Assembly: GCA_028599125.1 (NCBI GenBank)
Contig: JAQRMX010000027.1
Coordinates: forward strand, 1-33,542
DNA: 33,542 nucleotides
Direction: 5' to 3'
Source: Alphaproteobacteria bacterium
GTDB taxonomy: Bacteria; Pseudomonadota; Alphaproteobacteria; Rhizobiales; NORP267
Part shown: positions 29,307-33,542 of the stretch, piece by piece
Position numbering within the stretch: the first letter of the stretch is position 1
Layout of the letters: every line of letters begins with the position of its first letter
Made by a program: the position numbers and the translations under genes
Notes under the pieces: model-generated
What the model was told of the DNA's origin: nothing
What the model saw: the letters and a program-made list of their open reading frames with translations, nothing else
Database searches by the model: none

Positions 29307-30521
29307 TCATGGAACACGCCTCAGGCCCATTTCACTCCATAATTCATCAAGTGCATTGGACAGGATATATATCTGTTCCTCCGTGTGCAGTGCGCCCGGT
29401 GTAAGACGGATACGCTCCATACCGTGGGGGACAGTAGGGTAATTAATTGGCTGGACATAGATATCAAACCTTTCAAGCAACATATCAGTTAGCGCCTTGC
29501 ACGCCCTAGAATCACCTAACATAACCGGAACAATATGTCCCTCATTCAGGACAACAGGAAGTGCCCGTTCCTGTAGCGCCTTTTTCAAAGTTCGGGCACA
29601 GTTCTGATGCCGTTCACGCAATTCCGGATGCACACGTAGATAACTAATACTCGCCAAAGCCCCGCAAACAATGGAGGGAGGCAATGATGAAGTAAAAATA
29701 AATCCGGGAGCAAAAGAGCGAATCGCATCAATACAAGCGCTTGACCCGGTAATATAACCACCTGCTAGACCAATGCCCTTGGCCAAAGTTCCTTGAATCA
29801 CATCAATCTGGTCAAGAACGCCTGCCTGTTCTGCAAGACCCGCGCCATGGATCCCATATAACCCCACTGCATGGACCTCATCCAGATAAGTCATCGCTCC
29901 GTAACGCCGCGCAAGCTCACAAATTTCAGTAACAGGCGAAAAATCCCCATCCATTGAATAAACGGACTCAAAGGCAATCAGCTTTGGCATATCAGACGGC
30001 AAAGCTGAAAGAAGATCCTGCAAATGATTCAGGTCATTGTGACGCCAGATACGCTTGTCGCAAAGACCATGGCGAATCCCTTCAATCATGGAGGCATGAT
30101 TCATTTCATCAGATATAATTACAAGTCCAGGGATAAGTCTGGACAGGGTGCTCAATGCTGCTTCGTTGGCATTGTAGCCAGATGTGAACAGTAACCCCGC
30201 CTCCTTATGATGGAGGGAAGCAAGCGCGGCCTCCAATTCAATGTGGTAAGGCGTTGTTCCGGATATATTGCGCGTACCCCCAGAGCCTCCACCTGAAGCA
30301 TCGATTGCTTCATGCATAGCCGCAAGCACAATCGGATTTTGTCCCTGCCCGAGATAATCATTGGAACACCAGACAACCACCTCTCGTTCATTGCCATTTC
30401 TGCAACGGAAAACCGCACACGGAAAGCGCCCGGGCAAGCGCCGCAAATCAGCAAATTCACGATAACGCCCTTCTGAACGGACAGAATCAAGGGCTTTTGT
30501 GAACAGAGCCTCATATTCCAT
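29307..30521 (-). CDS. hemA: 5-aminolevulinate synthase (ALAS)
   Basis: [87 protein letters not shown] (PLP Lys). MEYEALF start at 30521; track start 30545. Confidence 0.97.
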
Positions 30522-30847
30522 AAAAAAATCCTCTGAAAAAAACAAAACCTTAAAAATTCAGGGCTCATGCCCATAAGTCGACAGAAATGCCTCCTGCCAG
30601 ATGCAACAGAAAAGGTATTGTAATGCACCCCTTCACAGGAGAGCTGAATTATACGGGGACAAGCGTCCTTATCAACTGGAAAATTACCTTGGGATCAGAA
30701 AGAAATTTTTCCCGAAGGGCATTTACTTCCGACAGCCCAGAAACGGAAAAAGACAGATTTTTCTCCTAATCTTCAGAAACAGGCGATAAATCTTTCCGTA
30801 TTTTGCCTGCAGAAACCGGATTGATAACCGGAAAAGAGAAACGCTGA

Positions 30848-31357
30848 TCACAAACGATACAGGATCTGGTCAGTCCAGAAGCGTTCCAGACGCGATAATG
30901 TGGAATTGATAAAAGCAAGGTCTTCTGCCTTCACACCACCAGGATGCTCAATGGTTTCAAGCTGACGATCGTAGAGAGAAACCAGAAGATGACGTAATTT
31001 CTTTCCTTTTTCAGTCAATTTTACCTGCACTAACCGGCGGTCAAGTGTTGATCTCTGGTGACTGATATAATCCATATCAACAAGCTTCTTGAGATTATAG
31101 GAAACATTTGAGCCAAGATAACATCCTCGGCTACGCAATTCACCGGCAGTCAATTCTGAATCTCCTATATTATAAAGGAGTAATCCTTGAACTCCGTTCA
31201 GCTCTGTAATACCATTACGATCAAATTCGTCTTTGATCACATCCAACAGACGGCGGTGCAAAATTTCAATCATTAACAAGACATTCATGTAAAAAAACTT
31301 GATGTCTTCTTTCTCTGAATGGCAGTGATGAACAGAAACATGAGGTTCTGCATCCAT
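30848..31357 (-). CDS. MarR family regulator, LdtR-like
   Basis: LLMIEILHRRLLDVIKDEFDRNGITELNGVQGLLLYNIGDSELTAGELRSRGCYLGSNVSYNLKKLVDMDYISHQRSTLDRRLVQVKLTEKG resembles LdtR-type MarR proteins. ATG at 31357 is preceded by GAGGAG; ATG at 31363 is an alternative. Confidence 0.85.
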   Translation of the reverse strand: MDAEPHVSVHHCHSEKEDIKFFYMNVLLMIEILHRRLLDVIKDEFDRNGITELNGVQGLLLYNIGDSELTAGELRSRGCYLGSNVSYNLKKLVDMDYISHQRSTLDRRLVQVKLTEKGKKLRHLLVSLYDRQLETIEHPGGVKAEDLAFINSTLSRLERFWTDQILYRL

Positions 31358-31964
31358 ACTCATCTCCTCAATAAAATGGAACAATATAGCAGACCTTAAA
31401 CAGCTCACAAATATAGCTCTATAAATATAAAATATCATTACAATGAATATGAGTATAAGTATTAAATACAATTCTTGTTTTTATGAATCCACTAATATTA
31501 TAAGGAAATATCCCTACAATTAAAAAATAAAATAATGAGCGAATATCATTTAATAAAAAATTATTATTATTTAATATAAATATAATATATTTAATTAATG
31601 ACAAAATGCTATTTATACAAACAAGTAAATATAAAGTTAGAATATATTAAGAATTTAATTTCTGTCACATAATTGAAAAAAGAACGGGTATATTTCATTT
31701 TCTCAATTTCAGTATAAACTCATCTCTCTGAAGAAGAGTCAAAAGGAAAAAATCACTGTTCTTTTATCTTTTTACAAATATTGATCTGACAGATAATGGC
31801 AAGAAACAAAAAGCGTATTCACTTTCAAGCTTTTTACCAGATTCAAAAATTTTTACTGGTTATTTGATCTAAAAACAGAAAATTTGTAAAAATCTTACTC
31901 TCAGATTTTATACAACAGCGTATTTCTTTTTTCTGAAGAACAGATAGAATCGCACAAATAAATC

Positions 31965-31970
31965 TTGACA
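31965..31970 (+). promoter_or_regulatory. Candidate -35 element (consensus TTGACA)
   Basis: TTGACA at 31965-31970 in AT-rich sequence; the -10 at the expected distance (ctatttg, about 31988-31994) is weak. Confidence 0.3.
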
Positions 31971-32012
31971 GTTTCTTATTTTCCAATCTATTTGGTTATT
32001 GTGCTGGGAGTT

Positions 32013-32053
32013 AAAAAGAGGCAATTGAACCGCTTTCAGTCTTGCCTTTTTTT
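32013..32053 (+). terminator. Intrinsic terminator-like hairpin upstream of the repeat-protein gene
   Basis: AAAAAGAGGCAA (32013-32024) pairs with TTGCCTTTTTTT (32042-32053), one G-U, 17-nt loop, followed by further T-rich sequence ctttttttttctg. Confidence 0.5.
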
Positions 32054-32122
32054 CTTTTTTTTTCTGAGTTCAGAAAGAGATTTTTGTGTTTAAATTTTTT
32101 CTAAATTACCGGGATTATAGAC

Positions 32123-32154
32123 CTTTTTGCACTTTGTCCTTTTTGCAATTTGTC
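32123..32154. repeat. 16-nt tandem duplication with one mismatch
   Basis: ctttttgcactttgtc (32123-32138) and ctttttgcaatttgtc (32139-32154), in the leader of the repeat-protein gene. Confidence 0.95.
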
Positions 32155-32176
32155 TTTGCAATAAGGAAATTAAGAA

Positions 32177-33542
32177 ATGGAACACATTTGGGAGATAAAA
32201 AGAATGTTTTTTAGACATGAAGTCTTTTTTAGACATGAAGTCATGGTTAACTTTAAAAAATCTCAGAATCGGAATCAAATTAAAGAAAAGGAGAACACTG
32301 CTTCAGCAGTCACTTCTTCTAAGGCTTCCGCTCAATTATCTCTTCGCGGACGTTTTCTTTTAGCATGCGGTGCTACCTCTTTTATAGCCATGAGTATGTT
32401 TTCGCCATTTTCGTCTCCCGCTCTTGCTGCATTTTCAGGTGAGCAGGAGGAAAAGTTAGGAAAGTTTATAAATGAATTAACAGACGATCAGATCAATTTA
32501 CTGAGAGAATATGCAAAAAGTTCTGACCTAAATTTAGAATTCGTTAATTCATTGACTGAGGATCAAAGAAATGCTCTGAAGGCATTTGCAGGGCTCAACC
32601 CTACTCAAAGAACTGCTCTGAAGGAATTTGCAGGGCTCAACCTTGCTCAAAGAACTGTTCTGAAGGGATTTTCACTTCTGAGCCCTGGTAAAATCGCTAG
32701 TCTGAACACACTTTCAGGGCTCAGAAGTGAACAAATCACTAATCTGGGGCTACTTGCAAATTACAATTTTAATCAGAATCAGGTCTCTAATCTGGGCACA
32801 CTTTCAGCACTCAGCTCTGATCAAGTCGTTAGTCTGAAGACACTTTCAGGTCTCGTTCTCAACCCTGGTCAAATCTCGAATCTGCAAGCACTTTCAGGGC
32901 TCAGCTCTGATCAAGTCGTTAGTCTGAAGACACTTTCAGGGCTCAATGTCGACTCTGAGGGTGTCACGAGGCTGAATGCACTTTCAGGGCTCAGCTCTGA
33001 TCAAGTCGTTAGTCTGGGGCTACTTGCAAATTACAATTTTAATCCGGATCAGGTCTCTAATCTGGGCAAACTTTCAGAACTCAGCTCTGATCAAGTCGCT
33101 AGTCTGAACACACTTTCAGGGCTCAGCTCTGATCAAGTCGCTAGTCTGAACACACTTTCATGGCTCGTTCTCGACCCTGGTCAAATCTCGAATCTGCAAG
33201 CACTTTCAAATCTCTCTCTCAACCATGGTCAAATCACTAGACTGAAGAAGTTCTCACTACTCAACAATCAGAAGATCTCGAATCTGCAAGCACTTTCAAG
33301 TCTCGTTCTCAACCCTGGTCAAATCATTAATCTGGGCACACTTTCAGCACTCAGCACTGATCAAATCACTAACCTGAAGACACTTTCAGGGCTCAATGTC
33401 GACTCTGAGGGTGTCACGAGGCTGAATGCACTTTCAGGGCTCAGCTCTGATCAAGTCGTTAGTCTGAAGACACTTTCAGGGCTCAATGTCGACTCTGAGG
33501 GTGTCACGAGGCTGAATGCACTTTCAGGGCTCAGCTCTGATC
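32177..33542 (+). CDS. Exported tandem-repeat protein, 3' truncated by the window edge
   Basis: ATG 32177 with AAGGAA upstream opens a frame with no stop to 33542 (about 455 codons). Translation: MEHIWEIKRMFFRHEVFFRHEVMVNFKK...RGRFLLACGATSFIAMSMFSPFSSPALA/AFSG... followed by repeats such as LSGLSSDQVVSLKT and LSGLNVDSEGVTRLNA. Missing from the ORF track because it lacks an in-window stop. ATG 32243 is an alternative start. Confidence 0.88.
   Translation, partial: MEHIWEIKRMFFRHEVFFRHEVMVNFKKSQNRNQIKEKENTASAVTSSKASAQLSLRGRFLLACGATSFIAMSMFSPFSSPALAAFSGEQEEKLGKFINELTDDQINLLREYAKSSDLNLEFVNSLTEDQRNALKAFAGLNPTQRTALKEFAGLNLAQRTVLKGFSLLSPGKIASLNTLSGLRSEQITNLGLLANYNFNQNQVSNLGTLSALSSDQVVSLKTLSGLVLNPGQISNLQALSGLSSDQVVSLKTLSGLNVDSEGVTRLNALSGLSSDQVVSLGLLANYNFNPDQVSNLGKLSELSSDQVASLNTLSGLSSDQVASLNTLSWLVLDPGQISNLQALSNLSLNHGQITRLKKFSLLNNQKISNLQALSSLVLNPGQIINLGTLSALSTDQITNLKTLSGLNVDSEGVTRLNALSGLSSDQVVSLKTLSGLNVDSEGVTRLNALSGLSSD
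32207..32242. repeat. Exact 18-nt tandem duplication, in-frame
   Basis: ttttttagacatgaagtc at 32207-32224 and 32225-32242, encoding FFRHEV FFRHEV. Confidence 0.95.
32500..33542 (+). repeat. In-frame coding tandem repeats of 42 and 48 nt (14/16 aa), including an exact 90-nt superunit
   Basis: aagacactttcagggctcaatgtcgactctgagggtgtcacgaggctgaatgcactttcagggctcagctctgatcaagtcgttagtctg at 33377-33466 recurs from 33467 to the window end and, nearly whole, around 32926-33015. Confidence 0.93.

Follow-up and report, generated by a model that had tools for sequence, protein, structure and literature searches.

Trimeric autotransporter adhesins (type Vc) are exported by Sec, form a twelve-stranded trimeric barrel from three C-termini, and thread the passenger outward (PMC7247746). 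Adhesion is normally mediated mainly by the head (PMC2483945), and coiled-coil stalks serve as the common filler (PMC7247746). Two types, beta-roll and beta-prism, are enough to classify most heads (PMC7247746). These adhesins are modular, and their known heads comprise few structural types. A known helical exception among them is the coiled-coil head of NadA.

The DNA analyzed here (33,542 bp, hereafter the window) is the entire contig C20 of an alphaproteobacterial genome of 1.43 Mb in 84 contigs. It ends within a repeat-containing open reading frame, which we compare with these adhesins and with other repeat proteins.

The open reading frame at the right end of C20

An open frame on the plus strand starts with the ATG at position 32177 and extends over 455 codons without a stop to position 33541, at the right edge of the window. 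The original prediction had described this frame, its signal-like N-terminus, its 14- and 16-aa units and its absence from the ORF list, all of which we confirmed. The frame is missing from the default list because it runs past the contig end. The last 115 bp of C20 (33428-33542, plus strand) are an exact duplicate of positions 32888-33002. The contig thus stops precisely where an exact repeat finishes, which accounts for the assembly break, since a short-read assembler would lose its path there. An assembly artefact had been considered as a possible origin of the array; it was broken by the assembly, not created by it.

The left neighbor, identified by Pfam and used below as a synteny anchor, encodes a MarR-family regulator on the minus strand (30848-31471). 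It is followed by a long AT-rich intergenic stretch 5′ of the frame (31472-32176, plus strand, 25% GC), in which no promoter-like sites exceeding chance were found. The sequence AAGGA is located ∼9 nt upstream of the ATG. Farther to the left, a PLP enzyme resembling 5-aminolevulinate synthase is encoded at 29307-30545, on one side of the locus. Close to the left contig end, non-coding DNA contains two exact tandem copies of a 22-bp sequence (ACAGGCTGATAAGCCGCATATG, 245-309).

Read directly from the sequence, residues 1-84 (32177-32428, plus strand) resemble a long signal peptide. A charged n-region precedes the hydrophobic stretch FLLACGATSFIAMSMF, followed by SSPALA/AFSG with an AxA-like site (SPALA/AF). 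The extended-signal-peptide models of Pfam gave no match to this N-terminus. An exact 18-bp tandem duplication (32207-32242) in the n-region results in FFRHEV being encoded twice. A 16-bp near-duplication is found just 5′ of the coding start (32122-32154), and long T-runs are located at about 32047-32063. At these duplications and T-runs, slippage could occur or the start site could be ambiguous, with other Met residues at positions 10 and 23. The putative signal peptide is followed by a lead-in of divergent units such as LTDDQINLLREYAK (32429-32551, plus strand), predicted to be helical by a single-sequence AlphaFold2 model with a pLDDT of mostly 60-70 in this block.

Repeat units and their relatives

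The tandem array (32552-33541, plus strand) was recognized by direct parsing, by the Pfam family PF20080 and by Tandem Repeats Finder. From residue 130 onward, we counted 22 units (13 of 14 aa and 9 of 16 aa), which mostly alternate and share the consensus Q-[VI]-x-x-L-x-x-L-S-x-L-(3 or 5 aa). The alternation produces a super-period of 30 aa: self-identity peaks at offsets 30, 44, 14, and 16, with 48% identical residues at offset 30. A three-unit DNA pattern of the array occurs four times in the window and in none of 100 dinucleotide shuffles. The array exceeds chance by far.

Within the units, the framework [VI]2-L5-L8-S9-L11 is nearly invariant, while the remaining positions vary freely. The framework codons are almost constant even at synonymous sites (pS 0.025), and it is this homogenization of the core that raises the pN/pS of whole units to 1.55. 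Diversifying (positive) selection at the exposed positions 1, 3, 4, 6, 7, and 10 was considered and dropped (pN/pS 1.03, bootstrap 0.78-1.46). As judged from these sequences, the combination of an invariant core and a variable rest fits homogenization by recombination with relaxed exposed positions. Recombination between near-identical units would probably let the array grow, shrink and become homogenized.

PF20080 (ALTTAQ_rpt) was detected with 40.8 bits against a gathering cut-off of 26.4, and the array alone scored 39.9 bits in six stretches. With a control HMM made from ALTTAQ proteins, the array reached 41.6 bits, compared to a maximum of 19.8 among 300 arrays in which positions were permuted inside each unit. 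The likeness to ALTTAQ repeats thus exceeds what composition and repetitiveness would give, and it may reflect either descent or convergence. The ALTTAQ proteins we examined (800-3,200 aa; Rhizobium, Rhodovastum, other alphaproteobacteria and Pseudomonas) show a strict 8-aa period, and the offsets of the array (30, 44, 14, and 16) differ from the multiples of 8 found in these members. Pfam revealed no YadA part in those of the ALTTAQ proteins that were scanned. The array thus agrees only partially with a known repeat family, with a score above the cut-off but a period of 14/16 instead of 8 aa. The repeat class, originally proposed as possibly undescribed, is accordingly not wholly so.

Several of these ALTTAQ proteins (L028-L033, L075-L077) are giants consisting almost entirely of 8-aa units; they occur here and there among alphaproteobacteria and on a Pseudomonas plasmid. 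One of them is encoded near genes for a FliI/YscN-type ATPase and a glycosyltransferase. In genome G201 (L034:3559-6990), ALTTAQ-like units are part of a large cadherin/VCBS-like protein beside a frame with RTX-type calcium-binding repeats, which places the motif in a type 1 secretion setting as well.

The 14/16-aa form of the repeat is absent from every other genome or plasmid examined. Protein searches of 60 relatives and of 387 class, 398 order, and 399 phylum genomes yielded weak ALTTAQ-like matches but no genuine relatives. The contigs of 85,462 species, among which records of this genome may be left out, gave no hit either with the protein or with the three-unit DNA pattern, which demands GAT-CAR. 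Plasmids showed no DNA match and only weak protein matches (25-32% identity); those examined were ALTTAQ-type proteins. Only five other genomes of the searched set belong to the same family as this one, and a placement in Acetobacteraceae looks unlikely. In the literature searched, we found no mention of ALTTAQ and no trimeric autotransporter whose head is leucine-rich or a helical solenoid.

A probable YadA-type C-terminal half on contig C41

When the ORF was compared with the whole genome, the array turned up at a single further site, at the left end of contig C41 and in the same orientation; it is confined to these two contigs. Instead of meeting a stop just past the window, as the original prediction had considered, the array resumes here, in a 595-aa frame with an open 5′ end (L004, 2-1789, plus strand). 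This frame opens with LSSDQVASLNTLSGL, two 14-aa units that equal C20 units except for one residue. After four units in total and a helical-looking linker, YadA head repeats (SFSLGKSAKADGEGSVAIGRNAKV) lead into a neck (VGNLRRIVNVADATGNKDAANLGQLD). A 193-aa segment separates the neck from a coiled-coil stalk, some modules of which are duplicated, and the last residues of the terminal segment are GVSYSW.

Pfam identified YadA_anchor (E 5.1e-9, 36.5 bits against a cut-off of 22.7), which extends to the last residue of the protein and is the only such domain in the genome. YadA_head was found above its cut-off (E 5e-6), and YadA_stalk/neck scored just below (E 2.7e-5, 24.9 against 28.4). The closest sequence matches in the PDB were trimeric autotransporter chains, among them SadA, YadA, Hia, and Burkholderia chains. 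The suspected C-terminal autotransporter barrel was thus located on C41, and the family that had not been recognized from the window is very likely that of the trimeric autotransporter adhesins. The 193-aa segment between neck and stalk (L004:722-1300) matches no Pfam family and could represent an additional domain of the passenger, as yet undescribed. In the stalk, the DNA shows a near-exact tandem duplication (NVRIDGANEKIQTNKYNITKNETAIIAA, L004:1290-1490), which seems to be a second spot of recombination-driven expansion in this gene.

The genomic neighborhood probably connects the two contig ends. The gene adjoining the array is marR on C20 (by Pfam) and hemB on C41 (L004 1976-3007, named from its sequence). 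In 21 of 25 relatives, marR and hemB are divergent neighbors on one contig, 0.3-6 kb apart, and this pairing is seen in every relative that carries both on one contig. The two genes are on different contigs in three of the remaining relatives, and no marR was found in the fourth. This arrangement is the layout expected if the adhesin gene had been inserted between marR and hemB, with the right end of C20 facing the left end of C41. Based on this synteny and the shared repeat, C20 and C41 very probably carry parts of one gene and are physically joined. The joined protein would comprise at least 1,050 aa, since a middle part is missing. In G001 and G002, the spacing between marR and hemB is tightest (0.27-0.45 kb), indicating that the adhesin is an insertion not common to those relatives; only one of the 25 relatives has a match to its C-terminal half. 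The inserted gene is flanked by two heme-synthesis genes, the 5-aminolevulinate synthase-like gene and hemB, with marR in between.

The gap between C20 and C41 is bridged by neither a read nor a contig, and the contig ends share no unique overlap. With no sequence joining them, the C20 frame could also encode a separate secreted ALTTAQ-like protein, perhaps a substrate of type 1 or type 2 secretion, while the YadA protein on C41 would be the product of a second gene sharing the repeat. ALTTAQ proteins lacking YadA parts do exist, such as the pure 8-aa arrays and the RTX/VCBS-like protein. However, synteny makes neighbors of the contig ends, C41 lacks the N-terminus and C20 the C-terminus, and the array is present on no other contig. 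We consider two separate proteins highly improbable. In all likelihood, the C20 frame represents the N-terminal part of a type Vc trimeric autotransporter adhesin of at least the above length.

Predicted fold of the array and comparison with known systems

We modeled residues 359-455 by AlphaFold2, using four other stretches of the array as alignment (five rows in total). The prediction contains six 11-residue helices (6-16, 22-32, 36-46, 52-62, 66-76, and 82-92), one per unit, connected by loops of alternately 3 and 5 residues. The best model has a pLDDT of 80.8 and a pTM of 0.37, and the five models span a pLDDT from 41 to 81, so the relative packing of the helices is not trustworthy. A helix plus a turn per unit is also suggested by features of the sequence, namely the V2-L5-L8 spacing, the capping-box-like SSDQ, and the NPG turns. 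A helical solenoid is the fold predicted from these data. Comparison of the array model with PDB structures and viral models gave no significant match. An alignment-free model of residues 86-455 was discarded (pLDDT 40); only a hint of helices in its first 60-70 residues was kept.

Two other folds were weighed. Phmmer matches to solved structures are mostly leucine-rich repeat proteins (the Rab family protein 5il7, E 0.002; TLR5; internalin A, E 0.17-0.37), which would be in agreement with an internalin-like head forming a beta/alpha horseshoe. Yet Pfam finds no LRR family at E values up to 5, the units measure 14/16 instead of 20-29 aa, and the Asn ladder is absent. The invariant V2-L5-L8 spacing is that of a helix with a capping-box-like SSDQ, and AlphaFold2 yields helices, making a leucine-rich repeat head very unlikely. 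The view that the units are helical and not true LRRs was hence supported.

Somewhat less improbable, but still unlikely, is an unusual trimeric coiled coil belonging to the stalk. Its period would fit, as 14 aa correspond to two heptads and 14 + 16 = 30 aa to two 15-residue YadA-stalk repeats, and such stalks are the usual filler in trimeric autotransporters (PMC7247746). The hydrophobic spacing of 3-3-3-5, however, is neither a heptad nor a pentadecad core pattern. Gly at position 10 and the Pro-Gly of the 16-mers interrupt a continuous helix, and the AlphaFold2 helix is broken at every unit.

For an adhesin with a helix-turn array, we propose the following mechanism. The long signal peptide would send the chain through Sec, and the C-terminal anchor segments of three chains would form a single outer-membrane barrel. 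The passenger would then thread outward and fold into the coiled-coil stalk, the neck and the short YadA beta-roll, which would stay near the membrane. As the array is N-terminal, it would be located at the far tip, where the array of each chain could serve either as the binding part or as a length-adjustable spacer. We infer trimerization and adhesion of the product. The earlier suggestion of a solenoid-like repeat in an adhesin that is secreted or displayed on the surface is supported.

Secretion and anchoring would be ordinary; the new feature of this unusual variant would be the predicted helical array as its outer part. Because most heads are of the beta-roll or beta-prism type (PMC7247746), a helical solenoid tip would be unusual. 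With a likelihood somewhat below even, the tip may consist of three alpha-solenoid arms of 14/16-aa helix-turn units outside these two classes, with a conserved hydrophobic framework, variable exposed positions and a recombination-flexible length, encoded in a reduced, host-associated-looking genome. If true, a helical repeat tip would widen the range of structures that type Vc secretion can deliver to the surface and present there, and the 30-aa repeat, with its near-invariant core and variable surface, would naturally lend itself as a scaffold for diverse binding. This locus also illustrates how an enigmatic orphan ORF of repeats, truncated at the edge of a contig, can be explained once synteny has revealed its other half.

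Short alpha-hairpin solenoids such as the PBS-lyase HEAT-like repeats use ∼30 aa per two short helices. The array would likewise have ∼30 aa per helix pair, but it shows neither a Pfam sequence match nor a fold match to them. With the ALTTAQ repeat proteins (PF20080), it shares the motif L-[ST]-x-x-Q-[VI]-x-x-L. The members examined keep a strict 8-aa period and those scanned showed no YadA part, whereas the units described here are of 14/16 aa with a 30-aa super-period. The closest resemblance in domain order is to YadA, BadA, Hia, SadA, and BpaC (type Vc): the C-terminal YadA anchor barrel with a final aromatic residue, the coiled-coil stalk, the neck, the YadA head repeats, and the passenger repeats are the same, and the signal-like N-terminus on C20 would correspond to their N-terminal signal peptide. 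In those adhesins, the heads are beta-rolls or beta-prisms (PMC7247746), whereas the outermost part here would be the 14/16-aa array, which is predicted to be helical.
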